The translations under genes were made by a program, and so were the position numbers. Positions 41,741-61,140 of a stretch of 64,000 nt of DNA are shown here, one piece after another. This stretch comes from Tribonema minus. Its lineage: Eukaryota > Sar > Xanthophyceae > Tribonematales > Tribonemataceae. Location of the stretch: positions 310,001 to 374,000 of the forward strand of contig JAFCMP010000434.1 in assembly GCA_017506865.1 (NCBI GenBank), in the 5' to 3' direction. Every line of letters begins with the position of its first letter. Position 1 is the stretch's first letter. The notes below the pieces were generated by a model that saw nothing but the letters and a program-made list of their open reading frames with translations, was not told the DNA's origin and did no database searches.

Positions 41741-42456
41741 TCATCGATCATATTGGAGCACACTCTGCCTGTAGAGTGAAATGCGATGGTCTTTGAGCCG
41801 GGCCAGTAGCCCACCTTTGGTGGGCGTGCCAATTGTAATCACTTGTGGAAACGATGCATAAGCACGAAAAGGTGGTAGGCCTGGGATGGGATCATTGCCA
41901 TTCTTTACCAGCAGCAGCCTGTCACCGAGACTCTGCAATATGCCTTCCACAAGTTCCTCATCCCCCAAGCGAGGTGTGCCAAAGCCGACCAAGGAGACAG
42001 CACTGTCATATTGTTGAGCAAGTTGATACGCAGTCAACGCGGCCAGCGCAGCGCCTGCAGAATGTCCTATGCATGTCAACAAAGCAGGTGATGAAAGGCG
42101 TTTGTGTAACTCCGGTTCGCACAGGCGCACTAGACGGCGCTGCTGAAGGTAAAACCCAGCATGCGCTCTACCAGGGCCATACATCGTAAGAGAAGCATGC
42201 GCATCAAGAATGAGATCCTTCAGGCCATCTGTGCCTCGAATACAAAACGCATGTTCAGTGTCACTCACCTGCATTAGCATTGCATGCGCACCACTGGTCT
42301 GGTCGGTAAGAAAGCAGGGGGTCTGGTAGCGCCGCTGAGCTCCTCAAACGCTGGCCCTGATTGTATGAGCTGTGCGGCCAGAATTTCAGCAGGTGCGCGA
42401 TACACACAGCTAGCAAAGTTTACAGCTTGCAGCAGCTTGGCAAAAGGCAGCAGCAT
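41741..42456 (-). CDS. Class-3 (fungal-type) lipase, one apparent frameshift
   Basis: The minus strand codes an alpha/beta-hydrolase of the Lipase_3 family, which cleaves acylglycerol esters. The oxyanion region reads AFCIRGTDGLKD. The nucleophile elbow is CIGHSAGAALAALTAYQLA (GxSxG). The acid is in NGNDPIPGLP and the histidine in LKDHRISLYRQSV, so the triad is present and the C-terminus complete. Upstream, 42320-42456 codes MLLPFAKLLQAVNFASC through FEELSGA. The sense then continues one frame over (YQTPCFLTDQTSGAHAM) into the main frame, so a single-base shift lies near 42340. It could be an error, decay or a small unrecognised intron. The gene lies head to head with the kelch gene. Confidence 0.75.
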
Positions 42457-42953: not shown

Positions 42954-42957
42954 GTAT
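42954..42957. repeat. Target-site duplication GTAT (left copy)
   Basis: GTAT abuts the 5' LTR and recurs at 52429-52432 directly after the 3' LTR. Confidence 0.85.
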
Positions 42958-43319
42958 TGATACAAAGTCCATGTCACAGTGCAGTTCAAGTGCTGTGTAC
43001 ACCTTTGACTGTACTGTACAAGTGTACTTCAGGCCAGTTCACCTGAGGACCGTTCCTAGGAATTTGCTTGGACTGTTCCAGGAACTACTTGCACAGAATA
43101 ATCTGGGGCAGCATCTCTGTGGCTTGCTTGGGTACTAACTCTTGCTAGCCAGCTGCTGGACAGCAGGGACTCATTGGAGCTGAGCCATCACCGATACACC
43201 AGGTGTGTGGTCTTTTCTCCATGCAAGTGGTTAGCCTACATCCTGAGAGTGAGCTCCTGTTTCCCAGAAGGGCTTGGCCTGCTCATGGAGCATCCCCAGA
43301 GGCCTTTCCTTTCGGATCA
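42958..43319 (+). repeat. 5' LTR, 362 bp
   Basis: It begins TGATACAAAG and ends TTTCGGATCA. The only difference from the 3' LTR is T at 43099 against C at 52208. It contains the 15-nt segment (43174-43188) complementary to the primer-binding site. No clear TATA box is visible. Confidence 0.95.
43174..43188 (+). promoter_or_regulatory. Candidate self-primer segment within the LTR
   Basis: TTGGAGCTGAGCCAT is the exact reverse complement of 43319-43333. If transcription starts near 43173, this would be the 5' end of the RNA and could fold back as primer, as in Tf1/sushi-type elements. The start site is inferred only from this match. Confidence 0.6.
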
Positions 43320-43333
43320 TGGCTCAGCTCCAA
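43319..43333 (+). other. Primer-binding site at the 5' LTR edge
   Basis: ATGGCTCAGCTCCAA overlaps the last LTR base and starts with the TGG usual for a primer-binding site. I could not match it to a tRNA 3' end with confidence, whereas it pairs over 15 nt with the LTR segment at 43174-43188. Confidence 0.7.
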
Positions 43334-43987
43334 CTCTCGGGATAACACCAGCGTAGCGCGGAATCACTTTTAGCGCGCCGTATACCCAATGTGACGTCCT
43401 CCCAGAGAAGTTGCATTGATGAGTTGCACACTACCATGCCAGGCTTGCTACTGCGCTTAGCCCGACGAGTAGCGGCACAGTGTTTGCAACGGAATAACTC
43501 AGATCTGCATGACATGCAACGCGGCGATCAAAGGCCGAGCTCAGAACGTTGCACCTGGAGCCGCGACATGCATGCTCGTAGCAACATCGCATGTGCGCTC
43601 AACCCTCTTACGACTGGACACTGTCGAACGGGTGCTACAGCGGTAGTCCTCATGGCAAGGAAGGCACGCGGTAGTACTGATCACACTGCCGCGTACAGGC
43701 CTGGACGACGCCGGGAACGTCGTTGCTACCCAGCCCTGACTGCTAGGCATTTTACATAGCCGATGCAGGCCCAGCAATACACCCACTGAAGATTCAGCGT
43801 CTTCTGCAAAGAGGGGGTGTTGACAGCTGGATTTAATCATGGGCAAAGTGTCTTGGCAATCATGTCAAACATGCTGTATCCGAGGGGCGAGAGCCTGCCT
43901 GACGTACGCATGCACGGGACATGTTGTCATTGCTATGCCATGCAGAGCGACCTGCAACAAGCGTAACGGGAGTACATAAGGAGAATC
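43334..43987 (+). other. Leader between primer-binding site and polyprotein start
   Basis: About 650 bp with no frame that looks like a gag gene. It ends in an A/G-rich stretch, AAGGAGAATC, just before the ATG. Confidence 0.6.
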
Positions 43988-46900
43988 ATGGCGGATAGCG
44001 TATCAAGATCGGCGACGGACAGCTCCGGGGAGGCTGGAACGACCCCGGGAGGCGAGGGGAACGGTGGCGGTGTGCAGCAGCAAGCGCTCGTGCCCCCCGA
44101 GCAGCAGCCGGCGACGCAACCCTTCACGTCGTCGGCCGGTCTAACCTCATCAGCGACGTCGAGCGCCGCCCCCTCGACCGTCGCAGTGACGGCGACCACC
44201 ACCGCCCCCGCAACCGGAGCCGCCCCGGTGTCGCTCCCTGCTTCCACGGACCCCTCCGGCGCGGGTCTTGGCGTCCCGCCTACGACCTCCGCTCCTCAAC
44301 CCGACTTCAACGAGATACTGCAAGGGCTGCGTCGCGCCCTGCCGCTGATGCCAGAGGGCGCCCTGGCTCAGCTCGCGGGACGCGCCGTCGAGGAGGCGGC
44401 CGAGATGACGTCCCCCGTCTCATTTCTCGGCACTCGTCCGCCGGCCTCATCAGCGCGCCCCTCCTTCACGCCAGGCTTCGCGCCCTTCTACCACGCACCA
44501 GACCCTTTCGCCACGCGCACGACTCTGCCTCCTTCCCTCACTGCGGTGCCCACCGCGGCAGAGCTGGAAGCGACGGTCCAGGAGCTTGAGCGCGCGCTGG
44601 ATCAACGCATCAACACCACCGTCGAGAGCAGCAAAGTGGCCGGTGATGCAACTGCTCAGGTGAACCCAGAGGCTGATCCCGCAGCCTGCGAAGTCACTGG
44701 CACGCGTAACCATTTGCTAAGCCGTGAGGTCGGTACTCGCGTGCTAGCAGCTATCATGTGCGCCTGTTGCGTGGCTAGGTGCAATGACCATGACACCGAC
44801 GCCAGAGCTGACGCAAAGCGCAAACGCAGCGTGCCGTGCGCGGCGTCTACAGCGGTAAGTGGGAATGCCGATCTCACTGACCTTGCTTCCGATCTGTGCG
44901 CCACCCCCCGTGACACTTTCGTGCACTTGCAGACTAGGAAGGGGGATGCGTGCGCTCACGACGGAGAACCCGACGTGACGGCCAGACCACTGCGAGTGGC
45001 AGAGCTTTGTTGCGGGGTGGGGGGTGTACATAGGGGGTTAGAGGACTTTGCCAGACACACAGGTGTCAAGGCTGAAGTGGTCCTTGCTGTAGATAGGGCC
45101 GAATACACATGCGAGGCGTACAAGCACCAGTTCCCTGGCACAGAAGTTCTATGTGCAGACATCGCCAGTCCAGCAGTGCTCAAGCGCCTCAAGCAGCTGG
45201 AACCCGATGCATTCTGGGTCACTGCCCCATGTGTTGACTTCTCGCCCTCGGGCAAGGGCGTTGAAGGCGAAGCGGCCAGCGTGTTGCCCTCCGTTGCACA
45301 GCTTGCTGTAAATGTACGGCCAAAATTGGTCTTTCACGAGAATGTGCCTCGAATGCTGTTGTCTGGGGCATGGGGCTGCGCCGACGGCCACATGCGTCAG
45401 GCGGGGTATTCGACCTTTGAGGTGCAATTTCGTGGCACTGATGTTGATGGTGGAAGTTCACGCGAGCGCATCTATACTGTGTCTGCGTGCAACACCCAGG
45501 CCACCCCTGCACGTTTTGCCCGCCTGAATGCCCTGTTGAATGAGCGCTTTCGCAGCAGTACTCCAAAGACTGTGCGCGATTGCACTGGTTGCATGGAGGA
45601 CACATTTTACTGGGATCCTCGTCAACCGCACCGTGCTGGCGTGCTTTCTACTGACATGCCACTGCCTAGCCCTGTGACTCGCCAACCTGGCAAGGGTCCC
45701 ACAAGGTACGTACAGAGAGCCAAGGATGCCGGTCCTACAAAGGACGCATTGATACTCTCGCCTGAACAGGTGATGGAGTGCCTGGGCTACCATGAGCCCT
45801 ACCCTGAAGGCACACTCACCCAGAGACGCAAGTGGGCCGCTGACCTAGTACAGCCCGCGGCTGTAAGCGCCCTGATGCAGTGTGTTCATGCCGTTGCCTC
45901 TCTGCCCAATTGTTGGGAGAGACCTGCCCCCGCTGGCCCTGACGTAACTCCTGGAGAGGTAACAGTGCATGATCACACGGCGCCGCCGCCGGAGTGGGTC
46001 GTGGACGCATCGCAGCCAGCACTACTGAGGATCGCCGGGACCTGCTCAAGCGCGCTAGGGAGTGCTGCGAACTGGTGTTGGGAGAAAGGGAGAGCGTTTC
46101 TTGCTTCGCTGCGCCAAGGTGAGCCAGTGCAATTAAATGAAGTACAGTGGCAACGCGGTGACGACGAGTCTGACTCTGATTCTGACTCACCAAGAGTAAC
46201 CGTTGAGCCAGCAGTGCCTCAGTCGACTGCAACACCCAAGACGCCGATGGTAGAAGAGAGCGCTAACCCTGACTCTGACTCAGCGACACCACTGCAGACT
46301 CGCATAACACTGCACGAGTTGAAACCTAGGTGGGCAGCAAGAGGCAAAGCGCCCATGCCACTCCACAGAGTCACCCCGGTAGGGAGGCCACGCAAGAATG
46401 GCTTTGTGCACATGACCATGCGCACACAGGTGGGCGATGCCGTGCAAGAGTTTGGTCTGGATACACTGGTGGATTGCGGCGCGGAGGCTGAGTTCATCAA
46501 CAAAGATTCAGCGCACAAGCTGCCGCCGGGCACCATCTGCCCTCTGGCTGATGGGGACTTCACTACGGTGGAGCTCGCTGACGCCAAGAAGTCGGTACCT
46601 GTAGAAGGGGTGGTGCACGCTCAGGTGCGCTTCAAAGACCACCTGCTGACGCACCGATTCTACGTCGTGGACCTGCCTTACCAGGCAATCTTAGGGTCAA
46701 ACTTCTTTGGCAAGTACGGCTCCGTGATCTCCTACGAGCACGGGATGAAATTCTATCCCGCTGGCTCGTCAGGCCCCGCTGTGCCCATGCGTGAACGTGC
46801 GCGCGTTGGAGCCTTGGAGCCCCCCGAAGCAAACTCCATCAAGATAGGCTCAGCAAGGGTACACACCAAGGACAAGCCTGTACTGCCAGAACGCAAATAT

Positions 46901-49900
46901 CTTCTCAGAGCAGCCTCAAACCAGGTCATTGACGCTGACACCGCGCACACGCTGGAAGTGGTGTCTCACCCGCCACTGCAGTGCACAGGTCCTGTAGAGG
47001 TGCTGCTAACCCCAGACGTCCCAGAAGCGGTGACGGCCGTGAACAAGTTGGCCGAGCAAGGCGTTGTGTTGCTGGACTCAGTAGATACTGCCATGCCGAA
47101 CAAACCACTCAGGCTAATGGCTGAAAACACTTCCACAATGCCAGTGCTCATCCGTAAGGGAGCAATACTAGGCGCTGTTGAAGCACCGGAGATGGTGTGC
47201 GGTCTAGACGTTGACCAAGAGACGCTCACAGCTAACCTCACGCGCATAGCGCTCAGCCGACTTTCTAGCGACCCCCCAACCGTAAATCAGGTGAAGCCTA
47301 GCTCAAATCCCACAGCAACCACACAGGCTGAGGCGGAACGCACCGCTCACAGGCGTAAGGTAGCTGAGGAGCACAATGCCACCTTAGAGCTCTGCACGGA
47401 CGAGGAGCTGGCAGACGTGCTGAAGCGGGATGGTAAGGTGATACCTATGTTGGAAGAGCGCGACAAAGACGGTGTTAAGTACTACGATCGGGTCATGGAA
47501 GTGCTACGCCGCAGACGTGCTGCCTTTGCAAAAGACCCCAAAAACCCTAGGGTCACGGATCGCTTTGACGTGGACATTGATACCGGAGACGCGGCCCCCA
47601 TAGCCGACAAGGCGCGGCGTTGGGCCGAGCGCGAGGCCAAAATCATTTTTCAAGCGATTCAGGACGAAAGGAAGCGTGGGCAAATCAGACCTGCTAGTGG
47701 GCCATGGGCCAGCAACCCTGTGCTGGTGGCTCAAAAGGGCAAGATACGCTTCTGTGTTGACTACAGACCGCTTAATAAGGTCACAAGACGTGACGAATAC
47801 GGCTTAGGCAACATGGAGGACTTGATTCAAAAGGTGGCAAGTTCAAGAATTTTCTCAGCTCTGGACTTTGCCTCAGGCTATAGGCAAATTCCCATGACCA
47901 AAGAGTCCTCTTGCAAGACGGCTTTCCGAGGGCCCGATGGCTCCCTATGGGAGTACAAGGTCGCGCCGTTTGGACTAGTATGTCTGCCCAGCATTTTCAC
48001 GCGCTGCATGCACGAGCTGTTAGGCGCTGCCAGACAGACTCATGCGTGCGTGTATGTGGATGATGTGCTGGTTCACAGCAAAGGGCTTGAAGATCACATA
48101 GCTCACTTGGACGATGTGCTGCGTCGCGTGGAGGAGTATGGCATGAGTGTGTCAAGGCACAAGTGTCAACTCTTCGCCGAGGAAGTGACATACCTAGGTC
48201 ACAAAGTCGGCCGGTATGGCATTAGGCCGTGTGAAGACAAGGTCAAGGCCATGGTGGACATGATGCCCCCGCTCGGTAAGGACGGCAAGGTTGACAAACG
48301 TCTCATGCAAGTCTTGATGGGATGTTTCAACTACTACAGGCGCTACATTCACCGATTTGCGTCCATCGCGGCGCCATTGATGGAGTGTACCAGGGACGGT
48401 GCTGACATGATATGGAATAAACGCCGTCGAGATGCACTCGCAGAGCTCAAACGCGCGATGTCGAGCGCACCCGTTATCATGCACCCAGATTTTGACCTGC
48501 CATTCATAGTACACACAGATGCTAGCAAGTTGGCAGTCGCTGGAGTGCTATCCCAGTTTGTGCCACTTGAGAAGCTTCGAGAGCGGCACAAAGATTTTCC
48601 ATGGGCTCACACCCGCCGTGCCAAGACGGTGGATGGTAAGCCAGCCAGAGAGGTAGTTGTAGCATTTTACAGCAAAGTCAATTCAGTGCAAGACGCAAAG
48701 CTAGGTGCCACCGCGCTGGAATGCCTTGCTGTAGTGCTGGCCCTGAACAACTTCCGCTCATACGTGTGGGGTAGGCCAGTAACCGTCATTACAGATGCGT
48801 CGGCACTGCGCTGGTTGCTAAAACTGAATAACCATAATAGCAAACTCCTGCACTGGGCCATGCGCCTCCAGGAATATGACGTCATGGTCGTACACCGCCC
48901 TGGTAAGGACAATGGCAATGCAGACTGCCCCTCACGAATGCCTCAAATGACGGAAATCCTGGGCCCCAGAGAGTATGACCACGCTGATGAGCAGTGGCCA
49001 GACTGTACGGATGCAGGACCTGCTCCGCCTACTGGGGTACGCTTTGAGAGCGAAGAAGTCGTGGATTCCCCCGCGAATATAGGCAGGATTGGGGCTTATG
49101 CCTCATACCCAGATGGCCCTGGCATGCGCTTTAACAAAGTCGCACAGGTATCCCCAGACCTGAGCGAGGCCATGCTCAAACTTAACCCCGCACAAGTGCA
49201 AGATGCTTTGTTTGACACCTCGCTTGAAAGCAGCAGTGGGGACGCCGTGCTTTTCAAAGAAGAGGGAGGTGAGCAGCCGGAGCAGTCGGAGCCGGAGCTG
49301 CAGGAGCTGGCGCTGGCGTCAATGCTTTGCAATCTGCGCACCGGAGTGTACCCAGATGGCGTGTGGGATAGCTGCGCATCACTCTTGGCACAGCAAACGG
49401 GTGAGCGTACCGAAACCGAGAACTGTGAAAGCAGCAGCGAGCAGGAACCTCAACTTCAAGTAGACATGATGTCAATTGATAGCCCTGTTCAACCCCCCGC
49501 GCCAGCAACCTCGGAACACCCTGGGGACCTTGCAGGAGGAAGCTCAGGTCAGCCCGCAGTGCTTGAGCGCGATAAATTTGTGCAATGGCAAGGGCGTGAC
49601 TCTTTCTGCATGGCTGTGAGGAATTACCTAGAGGACCGCAATGAACCTTCTGATGCCAAGTTGGCAAAGTTCATACCCCAGAACCAAGAATTCTTCACGC
49701 TAGAGCCTGATGGCCTGTTGGTGCACTTCGCAGCCAGTCGCCCCAAGAGGGGAGCCCTGATCACACAGTGGGTCACCCCTGAGGCACTGAAGCCCCTGGT
49801 GCTACGCATGTGTCACGACGATGGCAGCGCTCAGCACCCATCGACCGCCGCCACGCACGCCAAGGTGTTTGAGAACTTCTACTGGCGCGGCATGGGAGCT

Positions 49901-51820
49901 GACATTCGCGACTACGTGCGCAGTTGCATAGCGTGCCAACAGACCAAACCTCAGACGACAGCTCAGTACAAGCAAGTGCTCATGCCCCCTCAGCGCATGT
50001 GGCAGCGTCTTCACGTAGACTTCACTGAGCCAGGAGTCATATCTCTTGAGGGGCACCGCTACCTACTCGTGATAGTGGAAGCCAGGTCTGGCTATTGCTG
50101 GATTTTCCCCACTAAAAAAAGATCCGCTGCTGAGGTAGCTCCCCTGCTTGCGAAGGTGCTGCTTGAATGTGGCACACTGGTGGAGGAGTTGTGCTCGGAC
50201 GGAGCCAAGGATTTTGTGGGTGCGTTGGTGACTAGCCTCTGCCGGGCCTTTGCTGTTCAGAAGGTAGAGACTAGCGCATACCACCCCCAGTCTAACGGTG
50301 TCGCTGAGAACTTGAACGGTCGTGTCAAGAGGGCCCTGGCCAGAGTGTGCTCGCACTACCAGAACCGTTGGCACGAACAAGTTGACATCGTACAGTTTGC
50401 ACTGAGGAACACTCCCAGGGAAGAGACAGGCCTTACGCCTTTCTTCTGTGTCTTCGGTCGCGAGGCCAGATTCCCCCTAGATGCCCTCATCTCTAAGCCA
50501 GAGTGCACGACAGATCTGCACATAGAGGTGAAGCGGTTACAAGAGAATCTGAAGCTGGCAGAGTCTGTCATAGGCGAGGCGTTAAGCTCCAGGGCTGAGC
50601 GCATCCAAGCTCGTAACGACAAGATTCAACGCACCCTGCATGTAAGTGAAGGCGACTATGTATGGGTCAAAATGCCGCCCTCTGAAGGACGCGCGAGTGG
50701 CCTGGAGGAGCGCTTCACCGGACCCTGGAGGCTGATAGCACCCTACGGTGACTCAGGGCTGTCATTTCAATGTCAACTCAATGGCGCGCGTGTGCGGCTC
50801 ACTGATGCACACGTGGAAAACATGAAGCCGTATCACCCTAGGCCTGCTAGACTGGTCAGCGACGGAGTACACGCCGCCGTAGACCCAGAGCAGCTGAAGG
50901 AACTGGACCTTGATCAGCGGTTACAGAGAATTCTAGACCGCAGGGCTAATGAGGACGGTAGCTGGTCATACAAGTGGCTGGCACGCGACGGTACCTCGTC
51001 TGAGTGGATTCATGAGAAGGAGTTTGCAGAGAGTTTCATAGTGCCGTCCTGGGTGCTAGACACTTTTCATGCCCTCTATGAGATCCAACACGAAGGTCAC
51101 ATGCCGTCGTACGCAGAACGCCCTAGCCCACGTGAGGACCGCTCACTACCTAAAGACGAAGCGTTGAAGCGCTACCCTTGTGGCACTCAGGTGGTAAGGC
51201 AAATTTCAGGTGCCGATCCCGAGACCACTGAGTACATTTGGGGCCAAGTGCGCGACTTCGTACGATTTAAGTGGCGAGTGCGTTACACGGATGGAATTTG
51301 GGAGGACCTGACATCGGCACAGGTACGCTCGGGGAAGTTGCTAGCAGAAGGTGTGCGAGACAGGCTACGCAGGCTGGCGCGTGAACGAGACAAGCCTGAC
51401 CCTGCTGAGCATGCTGCAGATATTACAGCTGACCCGCCCCCAGGCGTGCGAGTCACGGTGTGCCCCCACGTTCCCACCAACTTTGGGCCACTGTACGTCG
51501 GGCAAGTACTGCGCTACAGGTTCCCAACGGGCTGGAGCCGTGGCAAACTGCTAAGGCACATCTCATCGAACCGTGAGCGCGGGGAGCACGTATTTGATGT
51601 AGAGTTCCCCAATACGCGCGGAAACAGGCCGATGGCGAGGCGCCTGAAGCTCCGCCAAGAGTACTACCGCGACGATCGCAACGCTGAACCTTCCTCGTGG
51701 AACCTGCTATTGGCACAGGAAGTCATAGAGCAGCCTGAAACCCCCCACACTCCCATAGAACCTCAGGTTGCGTTGGGCCAGAATGACCTAGGACCGCGCA
51801 AACGCCCGCGTCGCCGTTGA
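43988..51820 (+). CDS. Retrotransposon polyprotein: C5-methyltransferase, protease, RT, RNase H, integrase, chromodomain-like
   Basis: 2,610 residues in one frame. 1-330: Ser/Thr/Pro/Ala-rich, no zinc knuckle, gag not recognisable. About 335-635: C5-cytosine methyltransferase with motif I AELCCGVGG (339-346), motif IV APCVDFSPSG with Cys415, motif VI ENV (451-453), motif VIII SSRERI (Arg492, Arg494), motif IX LSPEQVMECLGYH (~590-602) and a weak motif X (~620). About 800-930: retropepsin-like, DCGAEAEFI, Asp829. About 1170-1460: reverse transcriptase, Asp1293, YVDD 1356-1359. RNase H: Asp1511, Glu1578, Asp1603. Integrase: His/Cys finger (His1943 to CIAC 1980-1983), then Asp2011, Asp2071, Glu2107, exact D,D35E. 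About 2305-2358: degenerate chromodomain. Tail: two Tudor-like stretches (VRYTDGIWEDL). The products copy RNA to DNA, integrate it and could methylate cytosines. All key catalytic residues seen are intact. Confidence 0.95.
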   Translation: MADSVSRSATDSSGEAGTTPGGEGNGGGVQQQALVPPEQQPATQPFTSSAGLTSSATSSAAPSTVAVTATTTAPATGAAPVSLPASTDPSGAGLGVPPTTSAPQPDFNEILQGLRRALPLMPEGALAQLAGRAVEEAAEMTSPVSFLGTRPPASSARPSFTPGFAPFYHAPDPFATRTTLPPSLTAVPTAAELEATVQELERALDQRINTTVESSKVAGDATAQVNPEADPAACEVTGTRNHLLSREVGTRVLAAIMCACCVARCNDHDTDARADAKRKRSVPCAASTAVSGNADLTDLASDLCATPRDTFVHLQTRKGDACAHDGEPDVTARPLRVAELCCGVGGVHRGLEDFARHTGVKAEVVLAVDRAEYTCEAYKHQFPGTEVLCADIASPAVLKRLKQLEPDAFWVTAPCVDFSPSGKGVEGEAASVLPSVAQLAVNVRPKLVFHENVPRMLLSGAWGCADGHMRQAGYSTFEVQFRGTDVDGGSSRERIYTVSACNTQATPARFARLNALLNERFRSSTPKTVRDCTGCMEDTFYWDPRQPHRAGVLSTDMPLPSPVTRQPGKGPTRYVQRAKDAGPTKDALILSPEQVMECLGYHEPYPEGTLTQRRKWAADLVQPAAVSALMQCVHAVASLPNCWERPAPAGPDVTPGEVTVHDHTAPPPEWVVDASQPALLRIAGTCSSALGSAANWCWEKGRAFLASLRQGEPVQLNEVQWQRGDDESDSDSDSPRVTVEPAVPQSTATPKTPMVEESANPDSDSATPLQTRITLHELKPRWAARGKAPMPLHRVTPVGRPRKNGFVHMTMRTQVGDAVQEFGLDTLVDCGAEAEFINKDSAHKLPPGTICPLADGDFTTVELADAKKSVPVEGVVHAQVRFKDHLLTHRFYVVDLPYQAILGSNFFGKYGSVISYEHGMKFYPAGSSGPAVPMRERARVGALEPPEANSIKIGSARVHTKDKPVLPERKYLLRAASNQVIDADTAHTLEVVSHPPLQCTGPVEVLLTPDVPEAVTAVNKLAEQGVVLLDSVDTAMPNKPLRLMAENTSTMPVLIRKGAILGAVEAPEMVCGLDVDQETLTANLTRIALSRLSSDPPTVNQVKPSSNPTATTQAEAERTAHRRKVAEEHNATLELCTDEELADVLKRDGKVIPMLEERDKDGVKYYDRVMEVLRRRRAAFAKDPKNPRVTDRFDVDIDTGDAAPIADKARRWAEREAKIIFQAIQDERKRGQIRPASGPWASNPVLVAQKGKIRFCVDYRPLNKVTRRDEYGLGNMEDLIQKVASSRIFSALDFASGYRQIPMTKESSCKTAFRGPDGSLWEYKVAPFGLVCLPSIFTRCMHELLGAARQTHACVYVDDVLVHSKGLEDHIAHLDDVLRRVEEYGMSVSRHKCQLFAEEVTYLGHKVGRYGIRPCEDKVKAMVDMMPPLGKDGKVDKRLMQVLMGCFNYYRRYIHRFASIAAPLMECTRDGADMIWNKRRRDALAELKRAMSSAPVIMHPDFDLPFIVHTDASKLAVAGVLSQFVPLEKLRERHKDFPWAHTRRAKTVDGKPAREVVVAFYSKVNSVQDAKLGATALECLAVVLALNNFRSYVWGRPVTVITDASALRWLLKLNNHNSKLLHWAMRLQEYDVMVVHRPGKDNGNADCPSRMPQMTEILGPREYDHADEQWPDCTDAGPAPPTGVRFESEEVVDSPANIGRIGAYASYPDGPGMRFNKVAQVSPDLSEAMLKLNPAQVQDALFDTSLESSSGDAVLFKEEGGEQPEQSEPELQELALASMLCNLRTGVYPDGVWDSCASLLAQQTGERTETENCESSSEQEPQLQVDMMSIDSPVQPPAPATSEHPGDLAGGSSGQPAVLERDKFVQWQGRDSFCMAVRNYLEDRNEPSDAKLAKFIPQNQEFFTLEPDGLLVHFAASRPKRGALITQWVTPEALKPLVLRMCHDDGSAQHPSTAATHAKVFENFYWRGMGADIRDYVRSCIACQQTKPQTTAQYKQVLMPPQRMWQRLHVDFTEPGVISLEGHRYLLVIVEARSGYCWIFPTKKRSAAEVAPLLAKVLLECGTLVEELCSDGAKDFVGALVTSLCRAFAVQKVETSAYHPQSNGVAENLNGRVKRALARVCSHYQNRWHEQVDIVQFALRNTPREETGLTPFFCVFGREARFPLDALISKPECTTDLHIEVKRLQENLKLAESVIGEALSSRAERIQARNDKIQRTLHVSEGDYVWVKMPPSEGRASGLEERFTGPWRLIAPYGDSGLSFQCQLNGARVRLTDAHVENMKPYHPRPARLVSDGVHAAVDPEQLKELDLDQRLQRILDRRANEDGSWSYKWLARDGTSSEWIHEKEFAESFIVPSWVLDTFHALYEIQHEGHMPSYAERPSPREDRSLPKDEALKRYPCGTQVVRQISGADPETTEYIWGQVRDFVRFKWRVRYTDGIWEDLTSAQVRSGKLLAEGVRDRLRRLARERDKPDPAEHAADITADPPPGVRVTVCPHVPTNFGPLYVGQVLRYRFPTGWSRGKLLRHISSNRERGEHVFDVEFPNTRGNRPMARRLKLRQEYYRDDRNAEPSSWNLLLAQEVIEQPETPHTPIEPQVALGQNDLGPRKRPRRR

Positions 51821-52054
51821 AGCTGTGCTGACCCTGTGCGTTAGCACTGGAGAGCAGTGTCATCGTCACGCACCCGGTGCACGCCAGACCGCCTAGGGTT
51901 TGACACGCGCCGCGTAGCCGGCCAATGAGGGACTTGAGAGCGTGTACCGTGGTGGTGATGATGCGACAATGAACACCGATGCTGTCTTCTGCGTTTAACA
52001 AGTATCATAAAACGCCGTGCGTCTCATGGGCGCGCCGTGGACGGCGGCCCTTTC
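51821..52054 (+). other. 3' untranslated part of the retrotransposon
   Basis: About 234 bp between the polyprotein stop and the polypurine tract, with no open frame of note. Confidence 0.7.
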
Positions 52055-52066
52055 AAAGAAGAGGGA
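52055..52066 (+). other. Polypurine tract
   Basis: AAAGAAGAGGGA directly abuts the 3' LTR, the position expected for plus-strand DNA priming. Confidence 0.9.
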
Positions 52067-52428
52067 TGATACAAAGTCCATGTCACAGTGCAGTTCAAGT
52101 GCTGTGTACACCTTTGACTGTACTGTACAAGTGTACTTCAGGCCAGTTCACCTGAGGACCGTTCCTAGGAATTTGCTTGGACTGTTCCAGGAACTACTTG
52201 CACAGAACAATCTGGGGCAGCATCTCTGTGGCTTGCTTGGGTACTAACTCTTGCTAGCCAGCTGCTGGACAGCAGGGACTCATTGGAGCTGAGCCATCAC
52301 CGATACACCAGGTGTGTGGTCTTTTCTCCATGCAAGTGGTTAGCCTACATCCTGAGAGTGAGCTCCTGTTTCCCAGAAGGGCTTGGCCTGCTCATGGAGC
52401 ATCCCCAGAGGCCTTTCCTTTCGGATCA
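52067..52428 (+). repeat. 3' LTR, 362 bp
   Basis: Same length and ends as the 5' LTR, with one substitution (C at 52208). GTAT at 52429-52432 follows as the right target duplication. Confidence 0.95.
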
Positions 52429-52432
52429 GTAT
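52429..52432. repeat. Target-site duplication GTAT (right copy)
   Basis: Matches 42954-42957, after which the kelch frame resumes. Confidence 0.85.
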
Positions 52433-53134
52433 GGTGTTTCGATCTGCTGGCATGGTCATATACTGCTCATGTACGCAGGCACAACGGGGTCAGAGTACTC
52501 TAACCACTTGTATGCATTTGATTCAAGAACTGCTGGTGTTGTAAAGGTCAGTACATCAGGATCGTGCCCCTCTAGAAGATACAAGCATGAAAGCTTTATT
52601 GTAGATGACTGCATGTACATCCTAGGAGGTGGCTCCTTCGCACCTACTGAAAGTTGCATGTATATAAACCAACTCAATTTGAGATCACTGGTGTGGCAGC
52701 AGGTGAAAGTGCAAAATGACACTTCTACTCCGAGGACAGCCTTTAGCTGCTGCGTGGACCCGGGGACATTGAAAGTTTGGGTGTTTGGCGGCTTTGATGT
52801 TGATAACACTCGCTTACAAGCCTTTCAAAACTATGACTTGACATCAAATGAGTGGGAGGTTGTGCAGACTGTATGCAGTCCAGATGCCCGTGCCTTTCAT
52901 TCCATGATATACACCCAGGGTTCCTTGTACCTAATGCTCGGTGCAAACGGCAAGAGAAAATTCAATGATGTTTGGCAATATCGAATTCGAAGCACTCCAC
53001 CCATGCTGCAAATGCTGGCAGCGTACGCATACTTGAGGCTTCCATGCCCTGCACACCAACCAGCAATACCTGATGAGATGCGATCACTCATAGAGTCTGT
53101 GAGACTTACACACAAGCCCACATTGTCTGCATGA

Positions 53135-56100
53135 CACAAGGTTGAACTTGAGCTAAAAGTTGAAGTTCCTGTGGCTGGGCCTGTCGAAAAAAGTATTTTT
53201 CAGAGGGTGACCCTAAATGGGGTCGGTACGACGCTCGCCAGGTTTTCATAAAGTGCAAATAATTATGGCCCAGCATCAAAAGTGTAGGTGAGATCAGGCT
53301 GAGTGAGGTTTAAGCATCCCCAGCATTAGCAGTCACCATAGTAGGCCTTACGATACAAAGTTGAACTTGTGATAAAGTTGAAGTTCCTGAGGTTGGTCCT
53401 GTCGAAAACAGGGTTTATGAAATGCAAATAATTGTGGCTCAAGATCGAAAGCGTTGGTGAGGTCAGGCTAAGAGAGCTTCAATATTGCGCTACACTAGCA
53501 GTCACCGCTACTAAGCCTGATGACTCAAATTGAAGTTGTGCTACAACTTGAGGTTCCTGAGGCTGGCCTGTGTCGAGAAAAGAGTTCATAGAGTGCAAAT
53601 CAGTATGGTCCAGCATCCAAAGTGTAGGTGAGGTCAGGGTAAGAGAGGTTCAAACATCGCCAGCATTAGCAGTCGCCATACTCAGCCTCACAGCATACAC
53701 TTGAAATTTGGTGTAGACTTGAAGTTACTGAGGCTGGTCCTGTCGAAAAAAGTATTTTTCAGAGGCTGACCCTAAAAGGGGTCGATACGACGTACGCCAG
53801 GTTTTCGTAAAGTGCAAATAAATATGGTCCAGCATCAAAAGTGTAGGTGAGATCAGGCTAAGAGAGCTTCCAACATCCCCAGCATCAGCGGTCACCATAC
53901 TAAGCCTTACAGCGCAAAGTTGACCTTGTGATAAAGTTGAAGTTACTGAGGTTGGTCCTGTCGAAAACAGGGTTTATGCAAATAATTGTGGCTCAAGATC
54001 GAAAGTGTTGGTGAGGTCAGGCTAAGAGAGCCCAATCATGCGCTACACTAGCAGTCACCGCTACTAAGCCTCATGACTCAAAATTGAACTTGTGCTGCAA
54101 GTTGAGGTTCCTGAGGCTGGCCTGTCGAGAAAAGGGTTCATAAAGTGCAAATAATCATGGTCCAGCATCCAAAGTGTAGGTGAGGTCAGGGTAAGAGAGG
54201 TTCAAACATCGCCAGCATTAGCAGCTGCCTTACTCAGCCTCACAGCATGCACTTGAACTTTGGTGTAGACTTGAAGTTCCTGTGGCTGGGCCTGTCGGAA
54301 AAAGTATTTTTCAGAGGCTGACCCTGAAAGGGGTCGGTACGACGCTCGCCAGGTTTTCGTAAAGTGCAAATAATATGGTCCAGCATCAAAAGTGTAGGTG
54401 AGATCAGGCTAAGAGAGCTTCCAACATCCCCAGCATCAGCGGTCACCATACTAAGCCTTACAGCGCAAAGTTGAACTTATGCTGAAAGTTGAAGTTCTTG
54501 AGGTTGGTGCTGTCGAAAACAGGGTTCATAAAATGCAAATAATTGTGGCTCAAGATCGAAAGTGTTGGTGAGGTCAGGCTAAGAGAGCCCAATCTTGCGC
54601 TACACTAGCAGTCACCTCTACTAAGCCTCATGACTCAAATTGAACTTGTGCTGCAACTTGAGGTTCCTGAGGCTGGCCTGTGTGAGAAAAAGAGTTCATA
54701 GAGTGCAAACAACCATGGTCCAGCGTCAAAAGTGTAGGTGAGATCAGGCAAGGAGAGGTTCCAACGTCCCCAGCATTAGCAGTCACTATAGTAGGCCATA
54801 CGGTACAAAGTTGAACTTCTGCTAAAAGTTGAAGTTCCTGCGGCTGGGCCTGTCGAAAAAAGTATTTTTCAGAGGCTGACCCTAAATGGGGTTGGTACGA
54901 CGCTCGCCAGGTTTTCGTAAAGTGCAAATAATTATGGTCCAGCATCAAAAGTGTAGGTGAGATCAGGCTAAGGGAGGTTCCAACGTCCCCAGCATAAGCG
55001 GTCACCATAGTAGGCCATACGATACAAAGTTGAACTTGTGATAAAGTTGAAGTATCTGAGGTTGGTCCTGTCGAAAATAGGGTTCATAAAATGCAAATAA
55101 TTGTGGCTCAAGATCGAAAGTGTTGGTGAGGTCAGGCTAAGAGAGCTTCAATCTTGCGCTGCACTAGCAGTCACCATACTAAACCTTATGACCCAAAATT
55201 GAACTTGTGCTGCAACTTGAGGTTCCTGAGGCTGGCCTGTCTAGAAAAGGGTTCGTAGAGTGCAAATAATTATGGTCCAGCAATAAAAGTGTAGGTGAGA
55301 TCAGGCAAAGAGAGGTTCAAACATCGCCAGCATTAGCAGTCGCCATACTCAGCCTCACAGCATACACTTGAACTTTGGTGTAGACTTGAAGTTACTGAGG
55401 CTGGTCCTGTCGAAAAAAGTATTTTTCAGAGGCTGACCCTAAATGGGGTCGGTACGACGCTCGCCAGGTTTTCGTAAAGTGCAAATAATTATGGTCCAGC
55501 ATCAAAAGTGTAGGTGAGATCAGGCTGAGTGAGGTTTCAGCATCCTCAGCATTAGCAGTCACCATAGTAGGCCTTACGATACAAAGTTGAACTTATGCTG
55601 AAAGTTGAAGCTCTTGAGGTTGGTCCACTCGAAAATAGGGTTCATAAAATGCAAATAATTGTGGCTCACGATCGAAAGTGTTGGTGAGGTCAGGCTAAGA
55701 GAGCTTCAATCTTGCGCTGCACTAGCAGTCACCATACTAAACCTTATGACCCAAAATTGAACTTGTGCTGCAACTTGAGGTTCCTGAGGCTGGCCTGTCG
55801 AGAAAAGGGTTCGTAGAGTGCAAATAATTATGGTCCAGCATTAAAAGTGTAGGTGAGATCAGGCAAAGAGAGGTTCAAACATCGCCAGCATTAGCAGTCG
55901 CCATACTCAGCCTCACAGCATACACTTGAACTTTGGTGTAGACTTGAGGTTACTGAGGCTGGTCCTGTCGAAAAAAGTATTTTTCAGAGGCTGACCCTAC
56001 ATGGGGTCGGTACGACGCTCGCCAGGTTTTCGTAAAGTGCAAATAATTATGGTCCAGCATCAAAAGTGTAGGTGAGATCAGGCCAAGAGAGGTTCCAACT

Positions 56101-58360: not shown

Positions 58361-58871
58361 CTGCCGTCTGCTCCTTTACTCCGATGGCGCGTTTGACGGC
58401 CAGCTGCCAGGATAGGCCATCGAACGAAGCCGTTATGGAGTACATGGGCTCGTTGAGGAATGCCATGCCGATCGAGTGCATGTGGCGCTGCGACCGGAAT
58501 CGAGCAAGTGCTTGCGTGCGTTGCGTGCCCTGCGGCAGCTGTTGCAGGTCCGCCTCCACCTTTAAGTTATCTGCAAGCTCGGTAGCGACGGCATCTGCAA
58601 GCGCACTCTGATTGGGGCGCTTCAGGCTACACTGCAACTGCAGAGCACTGGCGTCAAGTACGCAAGCAGCATCCGCACCAGTGCCACCACCTGCTGTTGG
58701 CCGCAGCGGCGGCTGCTGCGTAGGTGGTTGCTGCTGCAGTGGCGTTAGCGCTGGTGGCAGTATATGTTCCAGCTTGTCACCTGTTGCTGCACGTAGAGAT
58801 GTGGCAGCTGTGGCGATCGTCCGCATGAGGGGCAGGCGCGCCACCTCTGCTGCTGCTGCGCCTTGTAGCAT
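58347..58871 (-). pseudogene. LINE linker between reverse transcriptase and endonuclease
   Basis: A minus-strand frame continues the LINE after a frame change near 58870. It runs from AAEVARLPLMRTIATAATSL to SFDGLSWQLAVKRAIGV. No family motif is seen. Its stop overlaps the start of the endonuclease region in another frame. Confidence 0.55.
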
Positions 58872-61140
58872 TGCTGGTGTGGAACGCGCAGCGCCTGCAT
58901 TGACGGCTGCCGCTGCTGCGTGCGCTGGTGCTGCAGCTGTGCCGCCTGCCGTTGCTGCTGCTGCCAGTGGTGTTGCTGCTGCCGCAGGTGTGCAGCACCT
59001 GCCGCATTGGCCGCTGCCACCGCCATTGCCGCTGTCGCAGCCGGCACAATTGCGGCGCCGCCTGCCGACGCTGCTCCTGTTGCAGGTGCTGCAGCAGCCC
59101 TTAGGCTAGTAGGGCCTGTAGCAGCTGTGTTGCCTATGCCCGCAGCCGCTGCTGTTGATGCTGCAGTTAGTGATGCCGCCGAGGCCACTTGCGGTGCAAC
59201 ATGTGCTGCCGCTGCTGCAGCAGCCTCTGATGCTGGAGCAGCTGCTGCTGCCGCCGCTGCTGCTGCCGCCGGAGTAGTTGCGCCGTGCGCCGCCGCTGCT
59301 ACTGCTGCCGCTGGTGCCGCCTGTGCTGCCGCCGCGGCCCCTGATCCAGCGGCAGCTGCGTCGTGTGTTGCCGGAATGGCTGCGCCATAAGCGCGGCCAG
59401 CCGCTGACGCAGTTGCCGCTGCCGGAGCGGTCGCGCCTCCACTGGCAACCGCCGCTGCCGCTGTAACAGTTGCCGCTGCTGATGCTGCTGGTGCTGGTGC
59501 TGCTGCCGCTGCTGCCGGTGCCGCTTGTGTTGCCGCATCCTCAGCAGCGTTGTCTGCAGCCGCTTGAGGAGCCGCCTGCTGCAGCACCCCCGCCCATCCA
59601 GAGAGTGCTGGTTGCAGCGCTTGCAACGTGCCCGCCACATACGCAGCATCAGCGATGTCGCAGGCGCTGGTAATGCCAAGGCCGCCATGCCGTGTTGGGA
59701 GTCGCGCTTGCTGTAAGGCTGGGCCGTGCGCTGCCAGATGGAAGTGGGCCCCACTTTGCTCAAACTGGCGCCAGGTCTGGCCTGGTGGCTGCAGGCCCAT
59801 TGAGTGCTCAAGCACCCACTGCGTGACCCGATCCCACTCCTTGGCGGCTGGCGCTGTCTGCGTAGTGGGAATGGTGCGCAGGCAGTACGTCATGGGAGGC
59901 ACCACGCAGTAGCGCAGTAACCTGAACATAGCCCTCGGAGATGTCAGGCGCGCGCATCGCTCTGCAAATCGAGCCCCTGCCCCGCCTGCACCCGCTTCCC
60001 TGCGCAGCCATGCGTCCACAAAGCTGCTGTGGCCCACCGGCACCCCCAGCAACACAGCTCCACGGTTCTGATTTTCATCCGTATCCCCCACTAGCTGAAC
60101 GCCCAGCTGCTGCAGCAGTTGCCGCTCGTGGTCTGTCACCACATGCCCCCTGCCAGGCAGCGCGCGTGACTTGGTGAGGTTTAGCTCCAGCCCCACCTCC
60201 GCAAAGTGTTGTTTGAGCTGCGCCACCGCCTGTATGTCATCCTGAGTCAGCGTGCAAGCGCCTGTTCGGACGTTGGCATCGTCCATGTAGGCGCCCATCC
60301 GCCTCCGCGCGCGCTGCGCGGCCGCCGCCTCATTGAACCGTTTCAAGCACTGAGCAATGGCGCCGCAGAAGAGCATCGGTGCCGCGGGGTCCCCCTGCTT
60401 AAACCCGCGCTGAGACATGATGATGCGCATGGAGCCGTCGACGTGCTGGAACAGCAGGCGTGGCCGAGTGCAAACGTATGTGCCGATGAAGTAGTCGAGG
60501 AAGTCCGGCAGCTGTGCTGCTACCCATTCCGCTGCCGCCAGGACGAACACCATGTTGAAGGCATTCTTGAGGTCCAGCATGAACTGCCAGTGAGTCAGAC
60601 CGAGCTCATACGCGAGTTTGCCGGCCATGGCCGCTTTCTCCGCTCCTGCTGAGACGGCTACCCCATACTGCCCGTCTGGCTCAAGGAGCTCCGCCAGGAA
60701 GTCTTTGCGGTCTGCCACGTACACCGAAGTGCATAGTCGCTGCAGCACCTCGCCGCAAACGATGGGCCGCTGCTTAGCTGTCCTGTTGTTCTGCAAGTGG
60801 CGTCAGGCGCCCCGCGCCATGCAACTGCCAGAAGGCATCCGGCAGCCGCGCAGCCTCCCGCATAACGGTCTGAAGCCACCGTGTGAGGACAGCAGCAAAC
60901 TCATGCCGTCCCCAGCTTGTGCGTAGCGCATCCTGCAGGTTGCTGTAGCGCAGCCCCGATGGGCCTGCTCCACTGTAAGGGCTTGCTCGCTGGATGAGCT
61001 TGGCAACCGTCTCTGGCTCAATTCCCTCCCCCTGTAACAGCCTGAGGCTGAGTTCTGCTGGCATGTCGGCTGCTTTCGCCACATTGTCAAGCTGATCAAC
61101 CATGCCGGGTAGCTCATTGGAGTTGTTCCCCTGGCGCAGC
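58745..61140 (-). pseudogene. LINE-type reverse transcriptase with a long Ala-rich insertion
   Basis: Read on the minus strand, the domain starts near 61140 (ASPYSGAGPSGLRYSNLQ). It shifts frame near 60790, then continues RPIVCGEVLQRLC, FMLDLKNAFNMVF (first catalytic Asp), QRGFKQGDPAAPMLF and GAYMDDANV (catalytic pair, about 60276-60302). QGDP and the overall order fit a non-LTR reverse transcriptase; YMDD replaces the more usual FADD or YADD. After the thumb (ARLPTRHGGLGITSA) comes an Ala-rich low-complexity tract of some 200 residues (about 58960-59560) coded by GCN triplets. The frameshift near 60790 and another near 58870 break it unless they are sequence errors. Confidence 0.8.

Follow-up and report, generated by a model that had tools for sequence, protein, structure and literature searches.

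Retroelements that encode their own DNA methyltransferase (DNMT) have been described in Symbiodinium, where a DIRS element carries a DNMT3 and a LINE (long interspersed nuclear element) carries an orphan DNMT, and in Klebsormidium, where a Gypsy element carries a DNMT3 (PMC5890265). Methylation of the element's own double-stranded cDNA has been suggested for such enzymes (PMC5890265). A 2025 survey repeats the same retroelement cases and describes orphan DNMTs (PMC12344493). A 2019 opinion paper places Ty3 and DIRS elements encoding adenine or cytosine methylases in stramenopiles, red and green algae, and charophytes (PMC6338049), so the literature may already contain hints of such cases. A more distant parallel is a DNA transposon of brown algae whose methyltransferase is of the N4C/N6A type (PMC12477816). 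Literature searches limited to open-licence papers listed none that describes Ty3 elements carrying a cytosine methyltransferase other than DNMT3. Here, a 64,000-nucleotide stretch of a Tribonema minus contig (JAFCMP010000434.1, positions 310,001 to 374,000, forward strand), called the window, was analyzed. It contains a Ty3-type retrotransposon whose polyprotein includes a cytosine-5 DNMT that is, by sequence, not DNMT3-like.

An earlier reading of the same DNA, made from the sequence only, had proposed a Ty3-type element with its own cytosine-5 methyltransferase, placed inside a single polyprotein frame ahead of protease and reverse transcriptase (RT) and bounded by near-identical long terminal repeats (LTRs). 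All of this was borne out (Table 1), although the protease match is weak. The Pfam order RT, RNase H, integrase in the frame is that of Ty3-type elements; the integrase core domain rve falls below cut-off in the window copy and above it in the element of a related family, C. The left flank carries on a kelch reading frame by eye. On contig C290, a paralogue joins both flanks with no element between them, at 95% identity over the right flank and 90% across 300 bp on the left side; it confirms that the element inserted here with a 4-bp target-site duplication (TSD). The window contig belongs to a genome of 158 Mb in 554 contigs, in which 92 exon-wise chlorophyll-binding matches indicate a phototrophic host. 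The 18S sequence looks like that of a stramenopile or another SAR-type lineage. The element is a young LTR retrotransposon of Ty3 type in a photosynthetic protist.

The methyltransferase domain matches DNA_methylase PF00145 with 60.8 bits (cut-off 22) over polyprotein residues 336–521. Motif I (AELCCGVGG), the PC with the catalytic C82, ENV (118–120) and RER (159–161, domain numbering) are intact, and motif IV reads PCV where PCQ is usual, both as first read from the letters. An AlphaFold model of the domain (predicted local distance difference test score, pLDDT, 88) matches the folds of M.HaeIII and M.HhaI. Their VIA-align Z scores (26.4 and 26.3) are higher than those of the Dnmt2 proteins of S. 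pombe (25.1) and human (24.4); Foldseek ranks DNMT2 first, and by sequence the best relatives of known structure are DNMT2 chains. In profile match, in motifs I, IV, VI, and VIII, and in fold, the domain corresponds to a PF00145 C5-cytosine methyltransferase. The target-recognition region, earlier described as short, is modestly so: the whole domain has 307 aa, slightly below the 327 aa of M.HhaI.

Sequence-profile searches with a threshold of E≤10 returned 33 (A1) and 34 (A2) distinct chains, none with a DNMT3 or DRM name. A DNMT3A control in the searched library found 44 distinct DNMT3/DRM-type sequences, two of them named just 'DNA methyltransferase'. The best 50 rows of the VIA-align list include no DNMT3 chain, a result not used as a test. 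The assignment as not DNMT3-like comes from sequence, with a single, long-branched DNMT3 in the tree, and the enzyme instead resembles bacterial, phage, and DNMT2-type enzymes. M.HindV-like plasmid enzymes share 26.6–28.6% identity over 74% of the domain (seven of the eight rows listed, of 30 records), and a phage record shares 24% across 97%. Profiles of phage C5 methyltransferases (PHROG 116/363) score 70–118 bits, taking the best phage family for each of four domains. Identity to prokaryotic and phage enzymes is too low for a donor to be named. Seed-pattern scans of IMG/VR and GTDB genomes, which have limited sensitivity, gave 79, 42, and 145 pattern-matched stretches, of which 0 were confirmed as close relatives. 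CFT is a motif of DNMT2. It is absent from the retroelement domains, which have DFS, DYA, KFS, RYS, and similar at this place and do not group with DNMT2.

With the window domain as query, at least 131 match rows were found in the genome, 12 with internal stops and 119 without. At least 280 of the 307 residues are covered in 115 rows, and 110 of these are stop-free. Scoring covered the best 129 of 384 candidates, which makes the count a lower bound with a bias towards good copies. Misassembly and a one-off insertion are ruled out by the 131 domain matches together with the empty-site paralogue. The retroelement DNMT domains fall into about 10 families. Family A comprises 17 full-domain copies including the window copy, at 98–100% protein identity, and one further copy spans residues 1–299; a second set of domains is about 58–66% identical to the window domain and a third 33–37%. 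Where the RT is at least 82% identical, 50 of 51 loci have a same-strand DNMT match within 6 kb (52 rows, two being one locus). The exception, on C257, is a family B copy in which an internal deletion took out the DNMT domain. Two more distant RT families, on C117 and C201, had no DNMT row in the genome searches, yet the DNMT was present on reading. All 29 A- and B-type loci read have an open domain frame and retain the S-adenosylmethionine (SAM) motif, the catalytic Cys, ENV, and RxR. In the copies on C216, C427, and C521 the distance between RT and DNMT is about 5.3 kb instead of about 2.7 kb, which suggests a shared nested insertion. On C340, family E sequence (L042, L075, L076) is repeated around a 212-bp LTR, apparently as two tandem copies.

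Ratios of nonsynonymous to synonymous substitution (dN/dS, Nei-Gojobori) for the DNMT are 0.21 between families A and B (dS 1.6, near saturation), 0.147 for C-J (dS 0.93), 0.26 for E-F (dS 1.1), and 0.076 for F-f (dS 0.40). RT or RT plus RNase H gave 0.02–0.13 for the same four pairs. By these ratios the DNMT domain is under constraint, though it evolves faster than the RT. The spread over families and the dN/dS values indicate a long-kept domain that is held by selection, and the enzyme looks like a working part of the elements and not an accident. The module had earlier been called likely functional. Selection and copy retention support a likely function of the domain.

The DNMT takes two positions in the polyproteins. 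The first, in families A–D, I, and J, is ahead of the RT with a protease-like region in between; Pfam sees that region weakly in A, D, and J, and it was read by eye in the other three. Family F has the order protease (18.9 bits, against a cut-off of 28.2), DNMT, RT, and family E is alike by eye. Protease motifs read by eye are DCG, DNG, or DPG in the first group and DTG or DSG in E and F. A C-terminal chromodomain was found in family E (28.9 bits, over the cut-off of 25.1) and just under cut-off in family F (24.0), and Pfam found none in the frames of the other group, where the I and J frames stop before that part. The second group thus looks like chromoviruses. Pfam finds the DNMT alone in the two shorter loci, of families G (L006) and H (L007). 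An RT match about 2.6 kb downstream, together with the DNMT itself, puts family G in the first group; for family H, the DNMT and a stretch resembling a protease by eye point to the second.

The DNMTs of the two groups are about 25% identical. In a tree of 164 columns and small sampling each group is a supported clan, with values for the Shimodaira-Hasegawa-like approximate likelihood ratio test and ultrafast bootstrap (SH-aLRT/UFBoot) of 96.9/98 and 97.4/99. Support for all retroelement domains as one clan is mixed (SH-aLRT 96.4, UFBoot 79; 95.9/77 without DNMT3A). Apart from them, a host DNMT2 exon clusters with DNMT2 (98.7/100) and virus-like DNMTs cluster with a Streptomyces phage (97.5/99), and an origin from the host DNMT2 or the virus-like DNMTs is unsupported by the tree. 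The virus-like genes are three stand-alone DNMT loci on C223 and C181 (L001–L003), two of them in the tree, which look like endogenous giant-virus genes; the DNMT of L001 adjoins a deoxynucleotide monophosphate kinase domain.

The window element had been called full-length, which is right from LTR to LTR and wrong for coding content, as gag is internally deleted. Sister copies on C442 and C4 are 99.5–99.6% identical to the window copy over the LTR and 5′ region and diverge at a junction in the frame (Table 1). The C442 sister, read from both sides, has extra sequence for about 553 residues at the place of gag; the window frame continues across the gap and lacks this part of gag, a component of Ty3-type elements. 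The region has no Pfam match; it was labeled gag because of where it lies, because families A and B are homologous here, and because a Cys/His finger can be seen by eye. The window junction is read through also in C531, C81, C156, and C75, five of the 17 A copies with the window copy. The remaining 12, C4 among them, leave the window sequence at the junction, like gag-carrying C442; a rearranged copy, L026, was left out of this count. The 18-bp overlap at the junction is as expected from a template switch. Because the lesion is common to dispersed copies and the window LTRs are young, the gag-deleted copy was probably mobilized in trans with Gag of sister copies. The DNMT is retained in these amplified gag-deleted copies, and its sole deletion seen is the single family B locus. 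A separate, different internal gag deletion distinguishes two family B copies (L039 versus L055).

The LTRs of families A and B are nearly free of CpG. The window LTR has 3 CpG against 24 GpC at 51% G+C, an observed/expected ratio (o/e) of 0.13. No host segment in the 64 kb is as low, whether segments overlap (0 of 2691) or not (0 of 149), nor is any segment of the element body. The family B LTR (first 311 bp) has an o/e of 0.15, with 1 of 2697 host segments as low, and no similarity between the A and B LTRs is detectable. Among the 17 A copies, transitions affect CpG sites (38 of about 361) more often than other sites (58 of about 2417), with an odds ratio of 4.8. In eight B-type copies, CpG transitions make up 482 of 2692 pairwise transition differences. 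This footprint is only suggestive, and CpG methylation of the element is plausible.

We propose, with moderate confidence, that the enzyme most likely methylates the new DNA of its own element. A complete prokaryote-type DNMT would have been acquired long ago by the element lineage and then held by selection. Made within Gag-Pol, it would be packaged into the particle and could methylate the double-stranded DNA copy before or at integration, and the new copy would arrive in the genome already marked. In families A and B the nearly CpG-free LTR would keep the promoter beyond a CpG mark, and the promoter could work while the body is marked. The window copy, with most of gag lost in frame, would have been moved by gag-carrying sisters.

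Several observations weigh against this proposal. The catalytic PC is replaced by SC in family B (12 of 12 copies read) and by LC in family I (one copy), which may weaken or change activity. The DNMT is the faster-evolving domain, with 64% identity between A and B against 90% in the RT. The CpG-transition excess in family A comes mostly from one old copy; without it the counts are 8 and 23 (odds ratio 2.4, p 0.05). The LTRs of families C and D, taken from copies other than those first searched, have o/e values of 0.46 and 0.47, within the lowest 13–14% of host segments and unremarkable. The family E LTR (0.43) was likewise called not unusual, without ranking against host segments, and LTRs of family F were not found. 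The Klebsormidium Ty3 enzyme showed no activity in yeast, a result inconclusive in that source (PMC5890265).

The enzyme might instead act mainly on the host genome, methylating around integration sites or genome-wide and altering host chromatin, as proposed for Symbiodinium. The very high copy number in 158 Mb would suit this, and searches of the genome for DNMT1-RFD and SRA gave no match, though their controls gave none either. Host CpG o/e is about 0.70 with TpG and CpA at 1.4, but GpC (1.34) is raised nearly as much, so host dinucleotides give no clear methylation signature, and the element body (CpG 0.8) is not CpG-poorer than the host. We regard a mainly host-directed role as unlikely. 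A DNMT2-like role in methylating RNA, either the primer tRNA or that of the element, is suggested by the place of DNMT2 among solved relatives and in Foldseek. The missing CFT motif, the separate position of the host DNMT2 exon, the higher Z scores for M.HaeIII and M.HhaI, and the phage DNA-methyltransferase profile scores argue against it and make it quite improbable.

The non-canonical catalytic contexts in B and I and the faster evolution relative to RT are also what a catalytically dead domain might display, with a role in binding nucleic acid or in the structure of the polyprotein. Such a domain is very unlikely, given that the two retroelement groups, for all their low identity, share the Cys, ENV, RxR, and the glycines of the SAM site. 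We give hardly any credence to a DNMT that shields element cDNA from restriction-like or viral nucleases in algae meeting giant viruses, without epigenetic control. The giant-virus-like DNMT loci of the same genome fit this idea, and the nearest bacterial relatives include a restriction-modification enzyme adjoining its endonuclease, but no nuclease partner was seen in the element.

Table 1. Features of the retrotransposon and its insertion site (window positions)
Feature	Position	Strand	Remarks
5′ LTR	42958-43319	+	362 bp, TG...CA; starts TGATAC, stops GGATCA
3′ LTR	52067-52428	+	362 bp; 1 mismatch vs 5′ LTR
TSD GTAT, 4 bp	left 42954-42957, right 52429-52432	.	
Primer-binding-site position (TGGCTCAGCTCC...)	43320-43337	+	assigned by position; TGG after 5′ LTR
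Polypurine-tract-like CCTTTCAAAGAAGAGGGA	52049-52066	+	precedes 3′ LTR
Polyprotein, one open frame	43988-51820	+	2610 aa
gag-deletion junction, in frame	44625-44642	+	~1.67 kb less than sister copy on C442; 18-bp alignment overlap
C5-cytosine methyltransferase domain	44987-45907	+	307 aa, residues 334-640; Pfam, motifs, fold
Catalytic Cys codon of APCVDFS	45230-45232	+	
Aspartic protease-like region	46460-46711	+	weak Pfam match, E 0.14; motif DCG
Reverse transcriptase RVT_1	47735-48208	+	Pfam
RNase H (RT_RNaseH)	48488-48877	+	Pfam
Integrase zinc-binding Integrase_H2C2	49778-49954	+	Pfam
Integrase core rve	49997-50287	+	Pfam 28.1 bits, below cut-off 32.6
Kelch-domain exon, right part	52433-53131	+	exon split by element; element-free paralogue on C290

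Other features of the window include a lipase class 3 exon just upstream of the element (41744-42343, reverse strand, 64.5 bits) and, downstream of the kelch exon, a 115-nt direct repeat in seven copies (53262-54486). A second, unrelated RT frame (58748-60802, reverse strand, RVT_1 44 bits) probably belongs to a LINE-type element.

These findings add a case in which Ty3 elements captured a methyltransferase that is not a DNMT3, and the host seems to differ from those of the charophyte and dinoflagellate cases. Tentatively, and with more doubt than for the role proposed above, a single ancient capture of a prokaryote-type DNMT by Ty3 elements may have given a stable module, now in about 10 families and two polyprotein positions, one with a chromodomain. 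In the window branch the module may be paired with CpG-free LTRs, such that the element places a methyl mark on its own body and exempts its own promoter. With 110 stop-free near-complete matches in 158 Mb, the question of why a parasite carries an enzyme used for silencing it becomes directly testable in one alga. Methylation of new copies, of LTR versus body, and of gag-deleted passengers versus complete copies is readable in long-read data from that alga.

The sequence-only reading had cited dinoflagellate and charophyte precedents. These are published, but the window domain is not of the DNMT3 type of the charophyte case, and the CG methylation said to be reported for such enzymes holds for SymbioDIRS-Dnmt3 alone, the charophyte Ty3 enzyme and SymbioLINE having given inconclusive negatives in yeast (PMC5890265). 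Like the window element, KnitGypsy-Dnmt3 of Klebsormidium nitens has the Gypsy domains and a cytosine DNMT within its polyprotein frame; its copies too lack introns and are under purifying selection (its Ka/Ks<0.2; PMC5890265). It differs in its DNMT3-type enzyme, where the window element has a bacterial, phage, or DNMT2-like type, and in repeats described as DIRS-like (PMC5890265), where the window element has a simple LTR pair and TSD; the present alga also has two DNMT positions in the polyprotein and is apparently a different kind of host. SymbioDIRS-Dnmt3 and SymbioLINE-Dnmt of Symbiodinium place a DNMT on retroelements at very high copy number, as here, and the SymbioLINE enzyme is likewise an orphan and not a DNMT3 (PMC5890265). 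Those elements use a DIRS tyrosine recombinase or a LINE endonuclease (PMC5890265), whereas the window element is a Ty3 with an H2C2/rve integrase, and neither a tyrosine recombinase nor a LINE endonuclease is among the nine Pfam families found at E≤1 in its polyprotein. Prokaryotic M.HindV-like and phage (PHROG 116/363) C5 methyltransferases are the nearest sequence relatives, but stand alone in restriction-modification systems or phages. In the section of the orphan DNMT survey that covers them, no Ty3 element is described as carrying an orphan DNMT, and the retroelement domains reported here fit its view that there are DNMTs restricted to particular lineages and separate from the main eukaryotic families (PMC12344493).
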